34,600 bases of DNA from Myxococcales bacterium (GTDB lineage Bacteria; Myxococcota_A; Polyangia; Polyangiales; Polyangiaceae). The notes beneath the pieces were generated by a model. That model was not told the origin of the DNA, made no database searches, and was given only the letters and a program-made list of their open reading frames with translations. Both the position numbers and the translations under genes were made by a program. Below, in pieces: positions 12,933 through 34,600 of this stretch. The first letter of the stretch is position 1. Each line of letters starts with the position of its first letter. Location of the stretch: positions 1,082-35,681 of the forward strand of contig JAHFDZ010000027.1 of assembly GCA_023248745.1 (NCBI GenBank), given 5' to 3'.

Positions 12933-13760
12933 ATGCGGCGCCAGCTAGCTGTCGGCATACTGGCAGTCCTTTGTGGCTGCCGTAATCAGTCGCTCCATAG
13001 TGCGGAAGCAGGAACGCAAGGCAACGCGTCAACCCCGGCGCCTTCGGCAGCGTTGGCGTCGGCGGCTCCGAAAGTACGACAGACGAAGTTTGCGGCGGAG
13101 CGACTCTCGCTTGGCCAAGGCGATGAGGCCATCCTCGAACTCCCATTCGATGCTGTTGGTCGTAGGCCCATTCTTGTTGCGGTTCATGGTGCTGGCGATC
13201 GACCCGACTGGGCATGCGGTGGATGGCGTGCGATTGCGGAAGGCTACCCGTTCATCATTTGCCCTCAGGGTTCTCCAGGTGGAGGGGTGTACTGGTGGCG
13301 ATCGTGGAAAGACCTTGAGCGCATCGTCGATCGTTCTTTGGCGATTGTGAAAGAGCGCTACGCCGACTTCGTGGCTGATGGGCCAATCGTTCTTGTGGGG
13401 TTTTCGATGGGGGCTTCGAACGTTGCGGTTCTCGCAAGCAAAAGGTCAAGTGACTTCCCTTTTGTCGCGTTGGTCGAGGGCGCTTATGACACGGGCGGCG
13501 CGTTCGCGAATCCCTTCGCGAAAAGTGGCGGCAAGCGCGTGCTTCTGTCTTGTTCAACGGGCAACTGTGAGGGACGCTTTGCGTCTGCGCGTGCGTCGAT
13601 CGCGCGAGCGCACATCGATGTGCGCGTTTCGGATTCGGGTAGGCACGGGCACAATCTCGATAAGCCCGAGGCGATGCGTGAGCCGTTTGCATGGCTCGTT
13701 CGCGACGATTCGCGCTGGGCAGGATTGCCGGCAGCAAAGAAGCTCGAAGCTCAACCGTAA
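12933..13760 (+). CDS. Alpha/beta-hydrolase (esterase-like) lipoprotein
   Basis: The 275-aa protein starts MRRQLAVGILAVLCGC; the hydrophobic stretch followed by LCGC is a probable lipobox, placing the mature protein at the membrane facing the periplasm or outside. After a low-complexity Ala/Ser/Pro linker (about 30-50) comes an alpha/beta hydrolase core: PILVAVHGAGDRPDWACGGW (oxyanion region), PFIICPQGSPGGGVYWWRSW, the nucleophile elbow VLVGFSMGASNVAVLASK (Ser present), and GRHGHNLD near the C-terminus with a candidate catalytic His. The layout resembles the phospholipase/carboxylesterase or PHB-depolymerase-like group, but no substrate can be named. It begins 4 bp after the purH stop; no metabolic link with purine synthesis is obvious. 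Confidence 0.85.
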   Translation: MRRQLAVGILAVLCGCRNQSLHSAEAGTQGNASTPAPSAALASAAPKVRQTKFAAERLSLGQGDEAILELPFDAVGRRPILVAVHGAGDRPDWACGGWRAIAEGYPFIICPQGSPGGGVYWWRSWKDLERIVDRSLAIVKERYADFVADGPIVLVGFSMGASNVAVLASKRSSDFPFVALVEGAYDTGGAFANPFAKSGGKRVLLSCSTGNCEGRFASARASIARAHIDVRVSDSGRHGHNLDKPEAMREPFAWLVRDDSRWAGLPAAKKLEAQP

Positions 13761-24162: not shown

Positions 24163-24386
24163 AGGTGAAGGACAAAGCGGTCGCGGCGGGAGAATTCAAA
24201 GCAAAGTGTCTTTCGCTATTCGATGAAGTCGAAACGCAAGGGCGCTCTTTCGTCGTTACAAAACGAGGGCGTCCAGTCGCGCGTGTCGTGCCGCTTCCTC
24301 GAACGTCGACCGCAGGCTCCCTTCAAGGAAGCTTATTGCACGAAGAAGATCTGTTAGAGCCGGTCGATGTTGAGTGGGAGTCATGA
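24159..24386 (+). CDS. Phd/YefM-type antitoxin
   Basis: The 75-aa protein (MKVKDKAVAAGEFKAKCLSL) has the Phd/YefM pattern: N-terminal AAGEFKAKCLSLFDEVETQG, then FVVTKRGRPVARVVPLP, which is the DNA-binding dimer fold, and an acidic C-terminal tail (LHEEDLLEPVDVEWES) that should wrap the toxin. It is the DNA-binding, toxin-neutralising partner of the PIN-domain protein downstream, whose ATG overlaps its stop (ATGA). There is no ribosome site before ATG 24159 or ATG 24153, in line with a leaderless start; the ORF-track start at TTG 24123 would lie within the promoter. Pairing of Phd/YefM antitoxins with PIN toxins is well known in bacteria. Confidence 0.88.
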   Translation: MKVKDKAVAAGEFKAKCLSLFDEVETQGRSFVVTKRGRPVARVVPLPRTSTAGSLQGSLLHEEDLLEPVDVEWES

Positions 24387-24772
24387 TTGTGCTCGACACG
24401 CACGCGTGGGTTTGGTGGCTCACGAAGCCGAACAAGCTCGGCAAGAAAGCGGCGCGTTCGATCGACAAGGCGACTCGCCTCGGTGTGCCAGCGATTTGTG
24501 CGTGGGAAGTTGCGATGAAGGCCGAGGCAGGAAAGCTCAAGTTTGATCGGCCATATGACCTCTGGATTGATGAAGCGCTATCGGCAGATTCGCGAATCGA
24601 GCTTCTCCATCTTTTACCCCGCGTATCCATTCGTGCTGCAGAGCTCTCTTGGTCACACGCCGATCCTTCTGATCGAATGATCGTGGCGACCGCGCAGCTA
24701 CACGATGCATCGCTTGTGACTGCCGATGAACGCATTCGCGACTCGCGACTGGTTCGTTGTTTGTGGGAGTAA
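24383..24772 (+). CDS. PIN-domain toxin (VapC-like ribonuclease)
   Basis: The 129-aa protein starts MIVLDTHAWVWWLTKPNKLG at ATG 24383, with GGGAG upstream, overlapping the antitoxin stop. It shows the PIN-domain acidic residues: D5 in LDTHA, E42 in CAWEVAMKA, D94 and D97 in HADPSDRMIVATAQ, and D115 in VTADERI. These coordinate Mg2+ in the nuclease centre, so an active ribonuclease is expected; family members cut tRNA or rRNA. WEVAMKAEAGKL and ADPSDRMIVATAQLH are typical of the PIN subgroup paired with Phd antitoxins. The toxin RNA target is unknown. The stop codon lies within a dyad that could terminate transcription from both sides. Confidence 0.92.
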   Translation: MIVLDTHAWVWWLTKPNKLGKKAARSIDKATRLGVPAICAWEVAMKAEAGKLKFDRPYDLWIDEALSADSRIELLHLLPRVSIRAAELSWSHADPSDRMIVATAQLHDASLVTADERIRDSRLVRCLWE

Positions 24773-24806: not shown

Positions 24807-25436
24807 GTTGCCTGAAGGTTCCCACCCCGCTGCCATCGCCTCAGCGCCGCGCATGATCATGCGAACTTCGCGAATGATGCGCTCGGTCGTCTCTTCGCGC
24901 TCGGCGGCAGACTTGTCGACGGATGCGGCGCCAAGATTGAACGCTACCGTCACCATGGCCTCGGCGGCGTGTTCGACGTGCGCGAGTGGCCTTCCTGTGA
25001 GGACGGATCCGCGTTTGAGATCTTCGACCAAGTCATCCGTGAAGCGTTGAATCTCTTTGGCGATCGCTTCGCGAAACGCGGGCGTGCTGCCTGAGCCTTC
25101 TCCAAGCAACAACCGAAACAAGTTACGATTCGTGGCCGCGAGTTCCATGAAAATGCGGATAGGCGCGCGCACGACGTTGCGACCGCCGTCCTCGAGGACG
25201 CTCTGTCGTGCGCGCCTTACGAGCAATCGCAGATTCATGCCGACCTGATCGACGAGTGCGAGTCCGAGATCATCGAGGTCGGTGAAGTGTCTGTAGAACG
25301 AGCTGGGGCCGATCCCGGCCTCTTCGGCAACGGCGCGAAGACTGAGGCTCGAGAACCCTCGCTCGGCGCTAAGACGAGATGCAGCGTCGAGAATTTTTTG
25401 TCGTGTTTGAGCTTTCTCGAGCGCGCGCGAGGTCAT
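24804..25436 (-). CDS. TetR-family repressor closely resembling FabR/DesT (unsaturated fatty acid regulator)
   Basis: The ORF-track start (25892) is far too long. ATG 25436 gives 210 aa starting MTSRALEKAQTRQKILDAAS, close to FabR length. The N-terminal helix-turn-helix reads LSAERGFSSLSLRAVAEEAG then IGPSSFYRHFTDLDDLGLAL, and the ligand domain continues VDQVGMNLRLLVRRARQSVL, NLFRLLLGEGSGSTPAFREA and AEAMVTVAFNLGAASVD. From memory, Escherichia coli FabR has matching phrases (LSAER, [47 protein letters not shown]). FabR and DesT sense the saturated/unsaturated acyl-thioester balance and repress unsaturated fatty acid genes. Here the gene lies 0.8 kb from and divergent to the PUFA synthase operon, a strong contextual fit. 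No clear ribosome site is seen, so it may be leaderless. Confidence 0.93.
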   Translation of the reverse strand: MTSRALEKAQTRQKILDAASRLSAERGFSSLSLRAVAEEAGIGPSSFYRHFTDLDDLGLALVDQVGMNLRLLVRRARQSVLEDGGRNVVRAPIRIFMELAATNRNLFRLLLGEGSGSTPAFREAIAKEIQRFTDDLVEDLKRGSVLTGRPLAHVEHAAEAMVTVAFNLGAASVDKSAAEREETTERIIREVRMIMRGAEAMAAGWEPSGN

Positions 25437-25456
25437 GCAACTGCAGAATACACAGG

Positions 25457-25481
25457 GAGCGAATCTCAGTGCGGAAGCACT
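25457..25481 (-). promoter_or_regulatory. Candidate operator upstream of the FabR-like gene
   Basis: GAGCGAA-tctca-GTGCG (25457-25473, plus-strand reading) repeats the half-site order and spacing found twice upstream of pfa1. It overlaps a small perfect dyad AGTGC-ggaa-GCACT (25468-25481). It is 21 bp upstream of the repressor start, where binding would give autorepression. On the minus strand TGTGTATTCT just downstream could be an extended -10. The motif match is seen; binding is inferred. Confidence 0.4.
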
Positions 25482-25585
25482 TGAGTGAGCTTTGTATTCA
25501 CCATTCTTCATGAGAGTCATCGTGATGACGACGCGCAGCGGATCGACCTCGCCTGCGTAGGCGAAAGCGTGTCCACCAACGGCCC

Positions 25586-26020
25586 ATGCGATACGCTCTG
25601 CGATCGATGAGCGCGATCCTCTACGTACTTCCTGGCGGCATCCTCGCGGCGATCGGCTTTGTCCTTTTCTTCGGCCTTCTCGTTTCGATGAATGCACTTT
25701 CAAGATCGCGTCAGTTCGGAGCGATTGCGGAGGCGGCGTCCGGGCGCGCCGGAGCCTGGCGTCTCGCTGTGCTCGGGTTGGCCGTCTTCCTTCTCGTCGC
25801 TGGAGCATTGGCAAGTTTCGCGGGCGTGATGATGAGCGACGCGAGCCGGAGCAAAGCGTGCGTCGCTTCATGTGCCTCTCGTGGTTACACAAAGGGTGTC
25901 ATTCGCGGCTCGACCGCAAAGGATCCCAAAGAGCCACGCCACAACGCGTTCGTTGCGTGCGCGTGTGAGGGCGGGGCTTCGCCGCCGATCGAGTTTCCCG
26001 CAAGCGACCTTGCCAAGTAG
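25586..26020 (+). CDS. Small membrane protein of unknown function
   Basis: The 144-aa protein has two hydrophobic helices, YVLPGGILAAIGFVLFFGLL (about 13-32) and RLAVLGLAVFLLVAGALASF (about 59-79), and a C-terminal tail with paired Cys (CVASCASRG and CACEGG) that could form disulfides or bind metal. ATG 25586 is used from the ORF track; ATG 25607 (MSAILYVLPG) would give a more usual membrane-protein N-terminus, and neither has a good ribosome site. It lies between the divergent FabR-like repressor and pfa1, on the pfa strand, with 154-190 bp before pfa1. I recognise no family; a role beside the PUFA genes is possible but unsupported. Confidence 0.7.
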   Translation: MRYALRSMSAILYVLPGGILAAIGFVLFFGLLVSMNALSRSRQFGAIAEAASGRAGAWRLAVLGLAVFLLVAGALASFAGVMMSDASRSKACVASCASRGYTKGVIRGSTAKDPKEPRHNAFVACACEGGASPPIEFPASDLAK

Positions 26021-26040
26021 AGCGGAACGCGCCATATTGA

Positions 26041-26057
26041 GCGAACAAATGTGCGCC
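26041..26057 (+). promoter_or_regulatory. Candidate FabR-type operator, distal copy
   Basis: GCGAACAAATGTGCGCC, read with its flanking A as AGCGAACA-aa-TGTGCGCC, is a pseudo-palindrome with 6 of 8 positions symmetric. From memory, its layout (AGCGxACA then TGTxCGCT) recalls enterobacterial FabR sites. It matches the copy at 26151 at 14 of 17 bases. It lies about 120-155 bp upstream of pfa1. Confidence 0.45.
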
Positions 26058-26150
26058 GTAACCGTTAACTTTGGAATGTGAAGCAATCATGACGACGGCT
26101 GCGAGAGTTCGCATGTGATAACGCCCCGCTGATTCTAGAGAGTTCATTCG

Positions 26151-26167
26151 GCGAACGTATGTGCGCT
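26151..26167 (+). promoter_or_regulatory. Candidate FabR-type operator, proximal copy
   Basis: GCGAACGTATGTGCGCT differs from the distal copy at only three positions. It ends 7 bp before ATG 26175 or 43 bp before GTG 26211. A bound repressor here would block pfa1 initiation. The spacing of 110 bp between the two copies is close to ten and a half helical turns, so joint binding on one face is not obvious. Confidence 0.45.
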
Positions 26168-26210
26168 GAAATAAATGCGCTCTCATACGTGGATCAACTG
26201 CGAGGGAAGC

Positions 26211-27860
26211 GTGCAGACGATTGGAATTTGGAACAGTCACGGGGCTACCCCAGCGTTCTCAAAGATCGATTTGATCGCGGCAGCGAACAGCCTGCGTGAC
26301 CTTGTTCACGTGGTGCTTGATCCTAAGACCGGCGGCGTTGGCGTCGCATACGAGGGCGTGGTCTCAAGCCAGCCGAATGGGGGGCCAAGCTTTCCGCTCA
26401 TCGGAACATTGCCGCCGACCTATCCGGAATGGCTCGGCGATCGCTCGTTCACAGAGTTGCATCGGCTGCGTTTTCCATACGTTGCCGGCGCGATGGCCAA
26501 TGGCATCGCAAGCACGCGGCTCGTCATTGCGATGGCCCGCGCGGGACTTCTCTCGTTCTTCGGGGCCGCTGGGCTTGTTCCAGAGCGTGTGGGTAAGGCA
26601 ATTGACGAGATCGAATCGGCGGTTGGACGCGAAGACGAGGGAGCGCCAAGTTGGGGAGCTAACCTGATCCACTCACCGAACGAGCCGGCGATCGAAGATG
26701 CGGTGGCCGATTTGTACATCCGTCGTGGCGTTCGTCATGTGTCAGCGGCGGCGTACATGGGGCTCACACCCGCGGTCGTGAGGTACGCCATGAGCGGGAT
26801 TTCGCGCGACGATTCTGGGCGCGTACACCGTAAGAATCATGTGTTCGCAACCGTGTCTCGGCCTGAAGTCGCGCGCCGATTTCTAGAGCCGCCTCCAGAA
26901 GCGATGCTTCGCGAACTCGCCGCTTCTGGTGCGCTCACCCAAGATGAGGCGTCACTCGCTGCGCGCTTGCCCGTTGCCGAAACGCTGTCCGTTGAATCGG
27001 ACTCCGGAGGCCATACCGACAATCGGCCGCTCGTTGCGCTCTTACCGTTGATGCTCGCATTGCGTGATGAGATTGTGCGCAAACATAGTTACGTAAGGCC
27101 CCTTCACGTTGGGGCTGCCGGTGGCCTTGGAACGCCCGCCGCCATCGCCGCTGCATTTTCGCTCGGGGCGTCGTTTGTCGTCACGGGTTCGGTGAATCAA
27201 GCTGCGATCGAATCGGGCCTCCACGCCGATGGCAAAGCGATGCTCGCGCAAGCGGGTGTCGCTGACGTTGTGATGGCTCCCGCGGCCGACATGTTCGAGC
27301 TTGGCGTGAGCGTGCAGGTACTCGCGCGCGGAACGATGTTCGCGATGCGAGCACGCAAGTTGTACGAGCTGTATCGCGCACACGACAGCGTCGAGTCGAT
27401 CCCCAACGACGAGAGAGAAAAAATTGAAGCGACGATTTTGCGCGCTTCGTTCGCCGATGCGTGGGCGTCGACGCGTGCGTTTTGGATCGATCGCGATCCA
27501 CGAGAAGTGACGCGGGCCGACGCGGATCCGAAGCACAAGTTGGCGCTCATCTGTCGCGCGTATTTGGGGCTCAGCAGCAAGTGGGCCATCAATGGGCAAA
27601 CCGACAGGCGTGCCGACTATCAGATCTGGTGTGGGCCAGCGATGGGGGCATTCAACGCGTGGACAGCGGGCAGCTTCTTGGCCGAACCATCGGCGCGCGA
27701 AGTCGTTCAAGTTGCGCTCAATTTGCTCGAAGGTGCGGCGGTCGTGAGTCGCGCACAACAGCTACGTAGCTTCGGCGTGCCGATGCCGCCGGAGGCTTTC
27801 GATTTTCGTCCGCGGCGATTGGCCGTCGGATCCGGCGAACACCAAGGGAGGAATCCGTGA
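26211..27860 (+). CDS. pfa1: PUFA synthase enoyl reductase, Pfa1 (PfaD-like)
   Basis: Pfa1 is the FMN-dependent trans-acting enoyl reductase of PUFA synthases, reducing the double bond in chain-extension cycles where saturation is needed. The protein (549 aa from GTG 26211) has PFAD-family landmarks: PLIGTLPPTYPEWLGDRSF, FPYVAGAMANGIASTRLVIA, FFGAAGLVPERV, WGANLIHSPNEPAIEDAVAD, the TIM-barrel FMN motif HVGAAGGLGTPAAIAAAFSL then GASFVVTGSVNQ, and a C-terminal YQIWCGPAMGAFNAW. GTG 26211 has GAGGGA five bases upstream; ATG 26175 (track start) has no ribosome site and would abut the candidate operator. The stop overlaps the pfa2 start (GTGA). In myxobacterial clusters this gene comes first, unlike marine pfaA-B-C-D clusters where it is last. 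The nearest relatives are probably Sorangium or Aetherobacter Pfa1, not tested. Confidence 0.95.
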   Translation: MQTIGIWNSHGATPAFSKIDLIAAANSLRDLVHVVLDPKTGGVGVAYEGVVSSQPNGGPSFPLIGTLPPTYPEWLGDRSFTELHRLRFPYVAGAMANGIASTRLVIAMARAGLLSFFGAAGLVPERVGKAIDEIESAVGREDEGAPSWGANLIHSPNEPAIEDAVADLYIRRGVRHVSAAAYMGLTPAVVRYAMSGISRDDSGRVHRKNHVFATVSRPEVARRFLEPPPEAMLRELAASGALTQDEASLAARLPVAETLSVESDSGGHTDNRPLVALLPLMLALRDEIVRKHSYVRPLHVGAAGGLGTPAAIAAAFSLGASFVVTGSVNQAAIESGLHADGKAMLAQAGVADVVMAPAADMFELGVSVQVLARGTMFAMRARKLYELYRAHDSVESIPNDEREKIEATILRASFADAWASTRAFWIDRDPREVTRADADPKHKLALICRAYLGLSSKWAINGQTDRRADYQIWCGPAMGAFNAWTAGSFLAEPSAREVVQVALNLLEGAAVVSRAQQLRSFGVPMPPEAFDFRPRRLAVGSGEHQGRNP

Positions 27861-30800
27861 GCGCGAACTGTCCGATTGCTGTCGTGGGTGCGAGCGCTCT
27901 CTTTCCGGGATCGATCGACGCGACTGGGTTTTGGCGCGACATTCTGAGTGGCGCCGATCGCATTACGGACGTACCGCCATCGCACTGGCTCATTTCGGAC
28001 TATTACGATCCCGATCCCACCAAGCCGGACAAAACGTACGCCAAGCGCGGCGGATTCATTGGCGCCGTGGATTTCGACGCCATGGGATGGGGCGTACCAC
28101 CGAGCATCGTTCCGGAGACCGACACCTCGCAACTGCTCGCATTGATCGTCGCACAAAAAGTTCTTGAGGACGCATCCGCAGGAGCGCCTGACACGCTCGA
28201 TCGCAGTCGCATGTCGGTCATCTTGGGTGTGACGTCAGGTCAAGAGTTGATGGGCTCGATGGTGAGTCGTCTTCAACGACCCGTTTGGGTGAAGGCGCTT
28301 CGCGAATCGGGCATCGCTGAGGGCGAAGTCGAAGCCATTTGTGATCGCATCGCGGGTCACTACTCACCGTGGAAGGAAAGTACATTTCCTGGACTACTTG
28401 GAAACGTTGTCGCAGGCCGCATCGCCAATCGCCTAAATCTCGGTGGAACGAACTGCGTGACCGATGCCGCCTGTGCGTCGACGTTGGCGGCACTCGCAAT
28501 GGGCGTTTCCGAGTTGCGACTCGGCGAATCCGATTCTGCAATCGTCGGTGGCGTCGACACGATGAACGACATTTTCATGTACGTGTGTTTCAGCAAAACA
28601 CCTGCGTTGTCGCTCACCGGTGACTGCCGGCCGTTCTCTGATCAAGCCGATGGCACAATGCTCGGTGAAGGTTTGGGCATGCTCGCCCTCAAGCGACTCG
28701 CGGATGCAGAGCGAGATGGCGATCGCGTTTACGCAGTAATTCACGGCGTTGGAGCGTCATCTGATGGCCGCGCAAAGAGCGTGTATGCGCCCGTCCCTGA
28801 AGGTCAGGCGTTGTGCCTCAGGCGTGCATACGCGCAAGCGGGATTTGGACCCGACACGGTCGAATTAGTTGAGGCGCACGGCACCGGAACGAAGGCTGGT
28901 GACGCAGCCGAATTCGCCGGCCTGAGCCTTACGTTCGAAGAGAGCGGTCGTTCGGATCGTCAATGGTGTCAGCTCGGTTCAGTCAAGTCGCAGATCGGTC
29001 ATACGAAGTCAGCCGCTGGCGCAGCCGGGCTGTTCAAGATGGTCATGGCGCTTCATCACAAAGTGTTGCCGCCCACGATCAAAGTGGAGCGTCCGAATCC
29101 TGCGCTCAACATTGAGTCTTCGCCGTTTCATCTGACGACGCGTGCAAGGCCATGGGTACGCGCAAGTGACCATCCGCGTCGTGGTTCAGTAAGTTCATTT
29201 GGCTTTGGTGGCTCGAACTTTCACGTCGCGCTCGAAGAGTATCTTCCGACAGAACGTGCGAGAGCAATTGCGGCTCCCCGATTGCGTGCTCTTGATGCTG
29301 AACTCGTCGTCCTAACTGGCGCAAACGCGAGCAGTATAGTCAATGAAGTTGATCGTGTGGTGCGTGAGTGTGACACGCAGAGCTTGCCGTGGATCGCGCA
29401 TGCGTCTGCGTTGACATTTTCGGCTGACGCTCAAGCTCGCCTTTCGATTGTGGCGAATGACGTTGCCGACCTCAAGAGCCAGCTCACACTTGCAAAGCAG
29501 ATGCTGACGTCGCCTGACGTGAAACAGTTCTCAACGCCCAGTGGCATGCACTTCGGCACGGGTACGCGGCAAGGCAAGCTCGCCTTCATGTTTCCGGGGC
29601 AGGGAAGTCAGTACGTCGACATGGGCTCGTCGCTCGCGCAACACTTTGCACCTGCGCTAGCCGTGTGGGATGCCGCTGCCGATCTCAAGTGGAGCAAGCG
29701 CCTTCAAGACGTCGTGTTCCCGCGCACTGCATTTGGTGCCGACGAAACCGAGAGACAGAGCGCGCAGCTCAACGCGACAGAGTGGGCGCAGCCCGCGATA
29801 GCGTGCACAAGCCAATCGATGCTGGCAATGCTCGCCGCGCTCGGGATCGTCCCGGACGTGTGTGCGGGGCATAGTTTTGGTGAAGTGACAGCGCTGCATG
29901 CCGCGGGCGTTCTCTCGGCTTCAGATTTCGTGAACGTTGCGCGCCGTCGGGGCGAGTTGATGGCTGAAGCTGCCGAACATCCTGGAAAGATGGTGGCCGT
30001 GCCTGAGTCGGCGTCGCGCATGCGCGAATTGCTCGTGGGCTTTGGTGAGGCGGTTGTCATCGCAAATGAGAACACGCCAACGCAAGTTGTGCTCAGCGGG
30101 CGGGTTGACGCGATCGATGCGGTCGTGAACAAATTGAGCGCGCTCGGAATTGAGGCAACGCCTTTGGCGGTTGGAACGGCTTTTCATTCCGAAGTCGTGG
30201 CGCCTGCAAGCGGTAAGTTTCTTGACTATTTGCAAAGCGTTGCGTTCAAGGCTCAAGCGGCGTCGGTCTTTGGAAACACGAAGGCGGTAGCCTATCCCAC
30301 TGACGAGAACGCGGTGCGATCGCTCCTTGCCAACCAGCTTGCGGAGCCCGTTCGTTTTGTCGAAATGGTGCAGGCGATGGCTTCGTCCGGCGTGCACACG
30401 TTCGTTGAGCTGGGTCCGGGATCAGTGCTTAGCGGACTCGTAGGGCGCATCTTGGAGGGAACATCCCATCTTGCGGTACGTCTCGATCGAAAGGGCAAGA
30501 CGGGACTGCGGGCATTCCTGTCGGGGCTCGGTCAATTGTGTGCGGCCGGACATTCGATGCGCCTTTTGGCGTTGTGGGATGGCTACGCAGCGCCTGAAAA
30601 TTGCACCGCTCGCATCAAGCCGAAGCTGACCATTCCTATCGACGGCAGCAACTACGGCAAGCCCTATCCACCGGTTGGCGGTACGGCGAAGTTGCCGCCG
30701 CCCAACCCCGCAACGAAGCACAAGGTCGACGCTCCGGCGGTGAGTATGTCCGCAACTGCGCCAATGAGTACATCAGCAGTTACGAATAAACCTGTTTCAA

Positions 30801-33800
30801 ACGAGAGAGCGGCGATGACGAAAGCAACTGACAACGGTTCGACAACACGAATTGCCGCTCCAGCATCGGGTGATTGGGCGCGCGCGTATCAAGAGGTGCA
30901 AAGGCAAACGGCTGACGCCCATACCCACTACCTGCAGGCCATGGCGCAGAGTCACGCGGCCTTTCTCAACACGATCGAGCACAGCTTTCTTGCCTTGGCA
31001 GGCGCACCCATTGCAACGAACGTGAGCAATGAGGTCCCGCAAAGCGTGCCTATCGCAGCAAGCGCGACGCGACTCTTAAAGCCGACGGCGGCCCACGTTG
31101 AAGCGCCATCCATTCCTCCGGTGCAAACAAGGACAGCAAGTGCTCACGCACAGGTCGCAGCGATCGCGCGTGACGCTCCACCGGTCGCGAAGAGCACGCC
31201 GGCCTCAAACGTTGACCTCCACAAATTGATGCTTGAGATCGTCTCCGATCGCACTGGCTATCCGGTCGATATGTTGTCCACCGAGATGACGCTCGAAGGC
31301 GATCTCGGAATCGATTCGATCAAACGCGTCGAAATTCTCAGCGGAATACAAGACCGCGTGCCGTCGCTACCCAAAGTCGATACGGCAGTGATGGCCAAGC
31401 TCCAAACGCTCGGCCAGATAGTCAACTATATGAACGAGTTACTAGGCGCTCCAAACACGGATGTCTCTACGCCGAGCGCCATCTCAAGCGTCGACCTCCA
31501 CAAGACGATGCTCGAAGTCGTCGCCGACAAAACCGGCTACCCAACCGACATGCTCTCCACTGAGATGTCGCTCGAAGGTGACCTCGGAATCGATTCGATC
31601 AAGCGCGTCGAGATCCTCAGCTCAATGCAGGAAAGGGTGCCATCGCTACCCAAAGTCGATCTCGCCATCATGGCGAAACTCCAAACGCTCGGCCAGATCG
31701 TCAACTACATGAACGACCTCCTCACCGGCACCCCCGCCATCTCCAACGCTACCGCTCCCGCTGCCGCTCGCGCTCCTGCTCCGGCTGCCGCTGCCGCTCG
31801 CGCTCCCCAACTTTGCCGCTACATCCTCCGCACCGTCCCCCGCTCATCCCCACGCATCACCCGCACCGGATGGTTTGCGGGCCGCGTTGTCGTCACAAAC
31901 GAAGGCACCGCTCTCACGCAAGTCGTTGTGGACGCACTGCAATTGCGCGGCGTTCAAGCGCATGCAGTCGACGAAGTGCCGACAAGCGATGTGCGCGGCG
32001 TCGTCTTCCTTGGCGGGCTTCGCAACATTCGTGACGTGGCCGAAGCCATCGAAGTGAATCGCGAAGCATTCCGCGCCGCGCGTTCATTCGCAGCGAGTGG
32101 AACTGACGTTGGCGCATTCGCCACGGTGCAAGATACGGGTGGCACCTTCGCGACAAGTGGCACTCTCGATCCGAATCGAGCGTGGCTCGCTGGCTGTGCG
32201 GGGCTGGCACGAAGCGTTGCCCGCGAGTGGAGCGATGTGGCAGCGAAGGCAATCGATCTCGAACGCGGACAAATGAGCGTGGACGAACTTGCGGTCAAGA
32301 TCGTGAACGAATTGCTCGAAGGTGGTGCCGACATCGACGTCGGACTTCCTGCTGGCGGACGAAGACTCGTTCTCGAAAGCGCCGAAGTTGCGGTGAAGAC
32401 CGACGCTCCACTGCCTCTTAGCCCCGGCGACGTTGTTGTGGCCTCGGGTGGTGCTCGTGGCGTTACCGCAGCCACGCTCATCGGCCTCGCGCGCGAGATG
32501 CCCTTGTCGTTCGTACTGTTGGGTCGAAGCGCACTCAACGATGAACCTGTCTCTTGTGCTGGCATCGTCGGTGACGCGGACCTTAAGAGTGCGCTCCTCA
32601 AGGATGCCAAGGTCCACGGTCGCGCAACGACGCCAGCCGCTATTGGCGCCGAAGTGAATCGTATTCGAGCGCTTCGCGAGATTCGCGCGACGTTGTCAGC
32701 GATCGAAGAGGCAGGCTCGAAGGCACAATATGTAACTGTAGATGTATCAAATGCGATTGCCCTTTCGACGGCGCTCGAAGGTGTGCGCGCAAGCTTCGGA
32801 CCTATCGCTGCGGTAGTGCACGGTGCAGGAGTGCTTGCCGACAAGTTGGTAGTGGAGAAAACCGACGAGCAATTCGATCGCGTATTCGACACGAAAGTGC
32901 AAGGGCTGCGCGCGTTGCTCGATGCGACGGCAAACGATTCGCTCAAGGCGCTGATCCTCTTCTCATCGGTCGCCGCGCGTGTCGGCAACGTGGGACAGAC
33001 CGACTATGCGATGGCGAACGAGGTGCTCAACAAAGTTGCCCAATGCGAAGCGCGACGCCGTGGCGACGGGTGTTTGGTGCGCGCGCTCGGTTGGGGGCCT
33101 TGGGAAGGCGGCATGGTGAGTCCGGACCTCAGGACCCACTTTGAACGGATGGGTGTCGCGCTCATTCCGCTAAACGTGGGAACACGCATGTTGCTCGATG
33201 AGCTCCGGGGTCGTTCGCAGGCGGGCGTCGAGCTTGTTCTAGGGGGTGCGCCAACGGAAGGTGGCATTTCTGTTCCGCCTTCGCGCGCACTGAGCTTCGA
33301 CGTCCGGATCGAAGCGTCACGCCACGGGTACCTCTTCGATCACGCGATTGATGGCAACGTGGTTGTGCCTATCGTTATGGCGATCGAATGGTTCAGTCGC
33401 GCGGCGCGTGCGTTTGCGCCAACGATGCATCTTGCGCGCCTGACGAACGTTCAAGTTCTGCGTGGCATCGTCCTACGTGATTTCCAAACGCAGCCAAAGT
33501 TGCTTCGTGTTCAATGCCGTCATGTTGTGAACGGAAGCGACTTAACGTTGGCGCTTGAGCTGACCGACGAGCGCGGAATCGCGTTCTATCGCGCCAAAGC
33601 CGAGCTCTCATACGAGCGACGCATGATCCTCTCGAGTGGCGCTGGGCGACGTGATCTCGCACTGGGCGCATGGGGAGAGCGCGTCGTCTACGATGGGCAC
33701 GCGCTCTTTCACGGCCCCGCGTTTCGCGCAATCGCACACGTAGAGGGTGTTTCCGCAACGAGTGCGGCTGCGTGCATGACAGGCATTGCGGATGCCAACT

Positions 33801-34108
33801 GGGGCGAGGAATTCGTAACGGATGCACTCGCATTTGACGGTGGCCTGCAACTCGCTGTGCTGTGGTGCAAAGAGGTGCTTGGAGCGGCGTCACTTCCCAC
33901 GAGCATTCGAGCTGTCGATCTGTCAGGACCACCTCTCCATGGTCCCATCCACTGCGTACTGAGTGCCGCGCGCGCAACCGAGCAGCGCAGCGAGTGTGAC
34001 CTCACGTTCCGCGACGCTGGCGGACGCGTGCTCGCCGTGCTGTCGGGCGTCGAAACCCATTTGCGTCCACAAGCGCAAGCCAACTCAGCTCCGCTCGAAG
34101 CCCAATGA
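27857..34108 (+). CDS. pfa2: PUFA synthase megasynthase Pfa2: KS-AT-ACP-ACP-KR-DH
   Basis: This 2083-aa iterative synthase builds polyunsaturated chains from malonyl-CoA. GTG 27857 overlaps the pfa1 stop and has AGGGAGG upstream. Domains in order: ketosynthase (about 5-460) with C206 in DAACAS, H341 in EAHGTGT and H382 in GHTKSAAG; malonyl-CoA acyltransferase (about 573-870) with FMFPGQGSQYVDMG and S673 in GHSFGE; a long linker (about 900-1115) with a helical patch (YQEVQRQTADAHTHYLQAMA); two carrier domains with phosphopantetheine serines S1154 and S1247 in LGIDSIKRVEIL; ketoreductase (about 1400-1800) with VVASGGARGVTAATLIGLA and YAMANEVLNKVA; and a C-terminal hotdog dehydratase (about 1820-2075) with FDHAIDGNVVVP (H1829). 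All active-site residues are present. Only two ACPs is low for this family. The gene runs into pfa3 with an ATGA overlap. Confidence 0.97.
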   Translation: MSANCPIAVVGASALFPGSIDATGFWRDILSGADRITDVPPSHWLISDYYDPDPTKPDKTYAKRGGFIGAVDFDAMGWGVPPSIVPETDTSQLLALIVAQKVLEDASAGAPDTLDRSRMSVILGVTSGQELMGSMVSRLQRPVWVKALRESGIAEGEVEAICDRIAGHYSPWKESTFPGLLGNVVAGRIANRLNLGGTNCVTDAACASTLAALAMGVSELRLGESDSAIVGGVDTMNDIFMYVCFSKTPALSLTGDCRPFSDQADGTMLGEGLGMLALKRLADAERDGDRVYAVIHGVGASSDGRAKSVYAPVPEGQALCLRRAYAQAGFGPDTVELVEAHGTGTKAGDAAEFAGLSLTFEESGRSDRQWCQLGSVKSQIGHTKSAAGAAGLFKMVMALHHKVLPPTIKVERPNPALNIESSPFHLTTRARPWVRASDHPRRGSVSSFGFGGSNFHVALEEYLPTERARAIAAPRLRALDAELVVLTGANASSIVNEVDRVVRECDTQSLPWIAHASALTFSADAQARLSIVANDVADLKSQLTLAKQMLTSPDVKQFSTPSGMHFGTGTRQGKLAFMFPGQGSQYVDMGSSLAQHFAPALAVWDAAADLKWSKRLQDVVFPRTAFGADETERQSAQLNATEWAQPAIACTSQSMLAMLAALGIVPDVCAGHSFGEVTALHAAGVLSASDFVNVARRRGELMAEAAEHPGKMVAVPESASRMRELLVGFGEAVVIANENTPTQVVLSGRVDAIDAVVNKLSALGIEATPLAVGTAFHSEVVAPASGKFLDYLQSVAFKAQAASVFGNTKAVAYPTDENAVRSLLANQLAEPVRFVEMVQAMASSGVHTFVELGPGSVLSGLVGRILEGTSHLAVRLDRKGKTGLRAFLSGLGQLCAAGHSMRLLALWDGYAAPENCTARIKPKLTIPIDGSNYGKPYPPVGGTAKLPPPNPATKHKVDAPAVSMSATAPMSTSAVTNKPVSNERAAMTKATDNGSTTRIAAPASGDWARAYQEVQRQTADAHTHYLQAMAQSHAAFLNTIEHSFLALAGAPIATNVSNEVPQSVPIAASATRLLKPTAAHVEAPSIPPVQTRTASAHAQVAAIARDAPPVAKSTPASNVDLHKLMLEIVSDRTGYPVDMLSTEMTLEGDLGIDSIKRVEILSGIQDRVPSLPKVDTAVMAKLQTLGQIVNYMNELLGAPNTDVSTPSAISSVDLHKTMLEVVADKTGYPTDMLSTEMSLEGDLGIDSIKRVEILSSMQERVPSLPKVDLAIMAKLQTLGQIVNYMNDLLTGTPAISNATAPAAARAPAPAAAAARAPQLCRYILRTVPRSSPRITRTGWFAGRVVVTNEGTALTQVVVDALQLRGVQAHAVDEVPTSDVRGVVFLGGLRNIRDVAEAIEVNREAFRAARSFAASGTDVGAFATVQDTGGTFATSGTLDPNRAWLAGCAGLARSVAREWSDVAAKAIDLERGQMSVDELAVKIVNELLEGGADIDVGLPAGGRRLVLESAEVAVKTDAPLPLSPGDVVVASGGARGVTAATLIGLAREMPLSFVLLGRSALNDEPVSCAGIVGDADLKSALLKDAKVHGRATTPAAIGAEVNRIRALREIRATLSAIEEAGSKAQYVTVDVSNAIALSTALEGVRASFGPIAAVVHGAGVLADKLVVEKTDEQFDRVFDTKVQGLRALLDATANDSLKALILFSSVAARVGNVGQTDYAMANEVLNKVAQCEARRRGDGCLVRALGWGPWEGGMVSPDLRTHFERMGVALIPLNVGTRMLLDELRGRSQAGVELVLGGAPTEGGISVPPSRALSFDVRIEASRHGYLFDHAIDGNVVVPIVMAIEWFSRAARAFAPTMHLARLTNVQVLRGIVLRDFQTQPKLLRVQCRHVVNGSDLTLALELTDERGIAFYRAKAELSYERRMILSSGAGRRDLALGAWGERVVYDGHALFHGPAFRAIAHVEGVSATSAAACMTGIADANWGEEFVTDALAFDGGLQLAVLWCKEVLGAASLPTSIRAVDLSGPPLHGPIHCVLSAARATEQRSECDLTFRDAGGRVLAVLSGVETHLRPQAQANSAPLEAQ
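31211..31722 (+). repeat. Tandem ACP repeat within pfa2 (two copies, 93-codon period)
   Basis: The two carrier-domain units start with VDLHK and end with GQIVNYMN; 66 of 78 aligned residues are identical. They are spaced exactly 279 bp apart. The similarity suggests duplication or ongoing gene conversion within the array, as is known for tandem ACPs of PUFA synthases. Confidence 0.9.
31760..31806 (+). repeat. Short GC-rich direct repeat in the linker after the ACPs
   Basis: GCTGCCGCTCGCGCTCC occurs at 31760-31776 and 31790-31806, a 30-bp period inside a strongly pyrimidine-rich stretch that encodes an Ala/Pro/Arg linker (APAAARAPAPAAAAARAP). In-frame expansion or contraction would change linker length without breaking the protein. 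Confidence 0.8.
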
Positions 34109-34600
34109 AGGAGCCCATTGCGATCGTCGGTCGTGCTTGCGTATTGCCCGGCGCCCTCACGCCTGAAGCGCTCGCGACGCTCGTGTCAGAACGTCGCGAT
34201 CTCGTCCGCGCCGTACCGCCAGGTCGTTGGGGCATAGCGCCTGAAGCAGCGATGTGCGATCCGAATAGCCCGCGGCCGGATCGCGCTTGGTCCGATCGTG
34301 GTGGCTACGTCGAAGGGTTCGAACGAACGTTTGACGCGTCTGGGTTCGGCGTGCCCCAAGCCGAGCTTGCAACGCTTGATCCCGTGTTTCATTGGGTCTT
34401 GCACACGGCGCGAGAGGCACTGAGTCAGGCGAAACGATCGCGTAGCGATGCACGCATAGGCGCAGTCGTGGGCAATCTTTCCTTTCCATCTCGCGGGATG
34501 GCCGATTTCGCAGCGTCTGTTTGGCTCAAAGAAGCAGATGCGCGATCACGCAAAGTGGATCCAAGAAATCGCTTTCACTCGGGACTACCCGCACTTCTTC
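34105..34600 (+). CDS. pfa3: PUFA synthase Pfa3, N-terminal ketosynthase part only (runs off the window)
   Basis: An open frame of 165 codons begins at ATG 34105, overlapping the pfa2 stop (ATGA), and runs to the window edge without a stop, so it is not in the ORF track. The sequence opens MKEPIAIVGRACVLPGALTP, a ketosynthase N-terminus, followed by RRDLVRAVPPGRWGI, RGGYVEGFERTFDASGFGVP and LDPVFHWVLHTAREALSQA, which match the start of Pfa3/PfaC-type ketosynthases. In known myxobacterial systems Pfa3 carries KS, chain-length factor, dehydratase domains and often an acyltransferase (AGPAT); those would lie beyond the window. The active-site cysteine is not yet reached, so activity cannot be judged. 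Confidence 0.93.
   Translation, partial: MKEPIAIVGRACVLPGALTPEALATLVSERRDLVRAVPPGRWGIAPEAAMCDPNSPRPDRAWSDRGGYVEGFERTFDASGFGVPQAELATLDPVFHWVLHTAREALSQAKRSRSDARIGAVVGNLSFPSRGMADFAASVWLKEADARSRKVDPRNRFHSGLPALL

Follow-up and report, generated by a model that had tools for sequence, protein, structure and literature searches.

Myxobacterial PUFA synthase genes are exploited in engineering the production of EPA and DHA. No report of FabR control, or of any control, of myxobacterial pfa genes was found in the open-access literature. The closest described systems are those of FabR, DesT and PfaR. The sites of E. coli FabR are AGCGTACACGTGTTAGCT at fabA and AGCGTACACTTGTACGCC at fabB, with relatives at fabA and desA of Shewanella (PMC4537474, PMC4273635). 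In the ligand model for FabR and DesT, unsaturated acyl-CoA tightens DNA binding and saturated acyl-CoA loosens it (PMC4273635, PMC8872791), and a divergent layout of repressor and target is known for both desT-desB and Shewanella fabR-desA (PMC4273635). FabR control of the pfaRABCD operon was predicted in six Shewanella species, and FabR was reported in the same study to be absent from other proteobacterial classes (PMC5343134). The pfa genes of marine Gammaproteobacteria are accompanied by a regulator gene of their own, pfaR, whose product was modelled on the Mu-transposase fold, not on TetR (PMC4744452).

The locus described here is contained in a 34,600-nt window, the whole stretch of DNA that was analysed (Table 1). 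It shares with E. coli and Shewanella FabR (fabA, fabB and desA operators) the protein family and the 18-bp palindrome AGCGnACAnnTGTnCGCT, but its target is the adjoining PUFA synthase operon instead of fabA/fabB, and usually two operators are present in one divergent gap, outside the Gammaproteobacteria. With DesT-desCB of Pseudomonas aeruginosa, the closest solved structure, it shares the divergent arrangement and the expected acyl-CoA sensing, whereas the DesT target is a desaturase operon and the identity of DesT to the repressor, P0001, is 36-37%. As in Shewanella, FabR is proposed as the controller of a PUFA synthase operon; there, however, pfa is one addition to a broader FabR regulon and pfaR forms part of the operon (PMC5343134), while here the repressor gene adjoins pfa1 and the search gave no further target. 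PfaR is likewise encoded with the pfa genes but is unrelated to P0001 (PMC4744452). Judging from the protein family, the operator sequence, the conserved gene layout and the way in which repressor and operators occur or are missing together, we consider it highly probable that the locus encodes a dedicated FabR/DesT-type repressor of the PUFA synthase operon, probably responsive to acyl-CoA.

Table 1. Features of the repressor-pfa locus, in positions of the window.
Feature	Position	Strand	Evidence
fabR-like repressor gene, P0001, 210 aa	24804..25436	-	FabR equivalog HMM, E. coli FabR identity, DesT similarity
Segment of ~0.6 kb absent from congener G003	25437..26033	.	alignment with G003 stops at 25415, resumes at 26034
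Third copy of the first-pass motif, rejected as operator	25457..25473	+	matrix scores
Weak candidate site GGCGAAAGCGTGTCCACC upstream of repressor gene	25560..25577	.	10.7 bits, rank 3 (held-out matrix); noise level
O1, predicted operator AGCGAACAAATGTGCGCC	26040..26057	.	rank 1 with external and held-out matrices; conserved in congener G003
O2, predicted operator GGCGAACGTATGTGCGCT	26150..26167	.	rank 2 with held-out matrix, rank 4 with external; conserved in G003
pfa1, PfaD-type enoyl reductase	26211..27860	+	TIGR02814, 610 bits (cut-off 449)
pfa2, PfaA-type PUFA synthase	27857..34108	+	TIGR02813, 1415 bits (cut-off 1010)
Next operon gene, presumably pfa3; start only, rest cut by window end	34105..34599	+	open frame overlapping pfa2 stop

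P0001 carries a TetR_N domain and exceeds the cut-off of the NCBIfam FabR equivalog model NF008402 (212 bits; cut-off 151); its identity to E. coli FabR (from NC_000913) is 48%. Its best sequence match in the PDB is P. aeruginosa DesT (E 3.6e-29), and DesT (3lsj/3lsp/3lsr) took the top four places, including the palmitoyl-CoA and promoter-DNA complexes, in a fold search with its AlphaFold2 model (mean pLDDT 87); both fold and sequence are closest to DesT. By analogy with these proteins, P0001 is probably acyl-CoA-responsive. It is a TetR protein without the transposase (MuA) fold of PfaR, and its divergent neighbour is pfa1, encoding a PfaD-type enoyl reductase, not the acyl-CoA desaturase operon that adjoins desT. 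The PfaD-type gene is followed by a PfaA-type gene with KS, AT, ACP, KR and DH domains, the arrangement of a myxobacterial PUFA synthase. The start of pfa1 was corrected to the GTG at 26211 from the ATG at 26175, as the N-terminus is conserved in relatives. FabR acts on genes for the synthesis of unsaturated fatty acids; the predicted operators here lie on either side of the promoter region that serves the PUFA synthase operon. On the other side of the repressor gene, a PIN-domain gene (24374-24772) separates it from an LTD-domain gene; the congener has no PIN-domain gene.

A first-pass annotation of this DNA had described three copies of a GCGAAY-N4-GTGCG motif around the repressor gene and pfa1, likened the layout of the copies at 26041 and 26151 to FabR operators and proposed a self-contained regulon. 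The three strings were found by direct search of the window at 25459, 26041 and 26151, and the latter two agree at 14 of 17 bases, as described; 0.23 matches are expected per window, and three were reached in 1 of 100 dinucleotide shuffles. A genome scan, which had been suggested as a check, spoke against the motif as defined: the 6.13-Mb genome contains 26 exact copies of it, compared with 43 for the reversed control, which indicates that it is too loose and not enriched genome-wide, and that the cluster alone is unusual. A better palindrome is GCGnACAnnTGTnCGC, of which the sole perfect copy in the genome is that at 26041, the copy at 26151 having one mismatch. Read from sequence, the true unit is the 18-bp palindrome, the same as the published FabR operator, and two of the three repeats are almost certain to be binding sites of the neighbouring FabR-related repressor.

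Matrix scoring covered the 34,583 positions of the window, and the genome-wide operator counts come from pattern searches. An external matrix built solely on four FabR sites published for Gammaproteobacteria (E. coli fabA and fabB, Shewanella fabA and desA) placed 26040 first with 15.3 bits and 26150 fourth with 9.1 bits. With a held-out matrix, consisting of the published sites and those of relatives with this genome's own sites left out, the two positions ranked first (20.9 bits) and second (17.7 bits), the next-best position scoring 10.7 bits. The distance between O1 and O2 is 110 bp, and O2 is located 43 bp ahead of the pfa1 start codon. The third copy scored -3.4 bits (rank 334) with the held-out matrix and -2.3 bits (rank 390 of 34,583) with the external one; its held-out score therefore places it outside the operator family, and by these scores it is a chance look-alike, so that the proposed operator family holds for the copies at 26041 and 26151 and not for the third. 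The weak candidate GGCGAAAGCGTGTCCACC scored 10.7 bits versus 10.6 bits for a match within a gene (held-out matrix) and is not in the top 12 positions of the window with the external matrix. A perfect palindrome, GCGCACATCGATGTGCGC, is also present at about 13609-13628, within the reading frame 12933-13760; its half-sites are operator-like, but its spacer is 2 bp longer.

A relaxed operator pattern gave 20 matches versus 23 for the reversed control in this genome and 12 versus 12 in the congener. The other strict matches examined in these two genomes are almost all inside long stop-free reading frames, on which ground a wider regulon in them was rejected. The simplest reading of these matches would be a local, single-target regulon, which is in line with the self-contained regulon proposed earlier.

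The repressor gene is divergent from pfa1 in all nine genomes that carry it or an ortholog at least 60% identical. Comparison of the pfa1 upstream regions, likewise suggested in the first-pass annotation, revealed at least one operator in 9/9 of these gaps and a pair 110-138 bp apart in seven of them. In the congener, whose repressor is 92% identical to P0001, O1 precedes the repressor start and O2 precedes pfa1, with a spacing of 112 bp. The pattern GYGNACRNNYGTNCRC, whose background rate is about 3 per Mb, was fixed after this genome, G003 and G039 and then run on genomes not yet examined, the loci scored with the pattern fixed beforehand being G098, G236, G237, L154 and L155. Exactly two perfect sites were found within the 150-bp fabR-pfa1 gap of G098, two sites with 0-1 mismatch in each of L154 and L155, and one clear site in each of G236 and G237; L153 has two sites by matrix score only. 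Both half-sites vary together, being GCG/CGC in some genomes and GTG/CAC in others, which is what recognition by a symmetric dimer would predict.

As controls, 28 pfa1 upstream regions without a FabR neighbour (14.3 kb) were searched and contained no match, even with one mismatch allowed. In the pfa1 tree, the FabR-linked genes fall into one clade (99/99) that also holds three FabR-less members (G104, G259 and G260), in which operator sites were not found. The first tree had given an exclusive clade of FabR-linked pfa1, which was overturned once closer FabR-less relatives were added and non-carriers fell inside. Repressor and operators are present together and absent together; several FabR-linked loci, most of them in draft assemblies, were retrieved via FabR itself, so that no estimate of the frequency of loss is given. 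This FabR type ranges more widely over Polyangia and contigs labelled Deltaproteobacteria and Candidatus Binatota. The HMM, fold, external matrix and nine-genome comparison strongly support the earlier view that FabR-type operators stand beside a FabR-like gene and serve pfa1.

From these features we infer binding, the direction of control, the ligand and repression in vivo. The repressor would be dedicated to pfa1-pfa2-(pfa3), and its dimers would bind the two 18-bp operators and thereby block pfa transcription, as well as transcription of the repressor gene where O1 abuts it, as in several relatives. If the protein behaves like FabR and DesT, its binding would be favoured by unsaturated acyl-CoA (perhaps the PUFA made by the operon) and relieved by saturated acyl-CoA, so that PUFA synthesis would be under feedback from its product. 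Ahead of pfa1, five of the gaps contain a promoter-like TTGACC-N17-NATNGT element (two of the five also came up in a promoter scan); O2 begins 12-20 bp past its -10 hexamer, where it would be expected to impede binding or escape of RNA polymerase. The TTGACC-N17 element is not recognisable before pfa1 in this genome or the congener, and the search for a sigma-70 promoter of pfa1 here gave one weak candidate only, upstream of O1. O1 comes close to the start of the repressor gene in G098 (13 bp) and G003 (17 bp), which would give autorepression, and the best reading is that the repressor usually represses its own gene too. DNA looping between O1 and O2 is not claimed, because the spacings of 110-138 bp share no single helical phase.

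In this genome and in G039 autorepression is uncertain: here some 0.6 kb parts the repressor gene from the operator pair, and in G039 two genes do so (L102 1108-2363). The genes in G039, which resemble an arsenite methyltransferase and a MarR regulator (names read from sequence), leave both operators on the pfa1 side. The 0.7 kb around the motifs had been called mostly non-coding, a description that, at first sight, does not fit the 137-codon ORF at 25607-26020 within the spacer, for which one weak homolog only was found. The spacer was rejected as a repeated mobile element, being single-copy in the genome. The points against a dedicated repressor are the unrecognisable promoter element here, the ~0.6 kb between O1 and the repressor gene, the single clear site in G236 and G237, and the fourth rank of O2 with the external matrix.

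The ligand is where another reading has most weight: there is a little less than an even chance that the sites are FabR operators but the protein senses exogenous fatty acids, the general saturated/unsaturated acyl-CoA balance or another ligand instead of the PUFA product. The E. coli FabR literature is itself divided on whether the protein senses unsaturated fatty acid from outside, in the form of CoA esters, or the composition of the pool (PMC4273635). Against this reading, the only promoter found with these operators is that of the PUFA synthase, which would be odd as the sole target of a sensor of general membrane balance. It is improbable that P0001 activates pfa1 or that the sites belong to another TetR protein of the genome. 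In favour of this, the genome has six further, weaker TetR matches. Against it stand the joint presence and absence of the sites and this particular neighbour, the fact that the characterised FabR and DesT proteins are repressors (PMC4273635), and the place of O2 past the -10 element in five relatives, as suits a repressor. Least credible, and very improbable, is that all three repeats arose by chance in GC-rich DNA. The original pattern is indeed not enriched genome-wide, and chance does account for the copy at 25459, but for O1 and O2 it is contradicted by the external and held-out matrices, the nine-genome conservation with co-varying half-sites, the negative controls and the joint absence.

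A dedicated FabR-type repressor at this operon would extend FabR control of PUFA synthases beyond the Gammaproteobacteria, control of a kind already known from the Shewanella prediction. For the myxobacterial (omega-3-type) PUFA synthase genes, a candidate regulator, two predicted operators and a likely signal can be named, and the nine natural repressor/operator variant pairs are available for testing DNA specificity and acyl-CoA sensing. If true, PUFA-CoA sensing would mean that a bacterial PUFA synthase is under direct feedback from its end product.

More speculative, and in our view unlikely as a joint claim, is that residue 46 of the recognition helix largely sets the operator type and that a dedicated FabR has become adapted to sensing PUFA-CoA, the product of the megasynthase encoded divergently from it. 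Among P0001 and its equivalents in L102, L104, L106, L107, L124, L130, L131, L153-L155 and L158-L170, Ser46 accompanies GCG outer half-sites (this genome, G003, G236, G237, L155, E. coli and Woeseiaceae), and Ala46 or Gly46 accompanies GTG half-sites (G039, G098, G042, G066 and G009). The rule is not clean, because L154 shows a mixture and one site of L153 is of the GAG type. The FabR genes of Woeseiaceae and other Gammaproteobacteria (L158-L170) almost all have a near-GCGTACANNTGTACGC site about 80-100 bp upstream, at a constant distance. More distant FabR/DesT-like genes of relatives (about 40%) carry paired AGTG-type palindromes just upstream, at about 3983 and 4069 in L104, 4654 and 4696 in L106, and 4410 and 4453 in L107.
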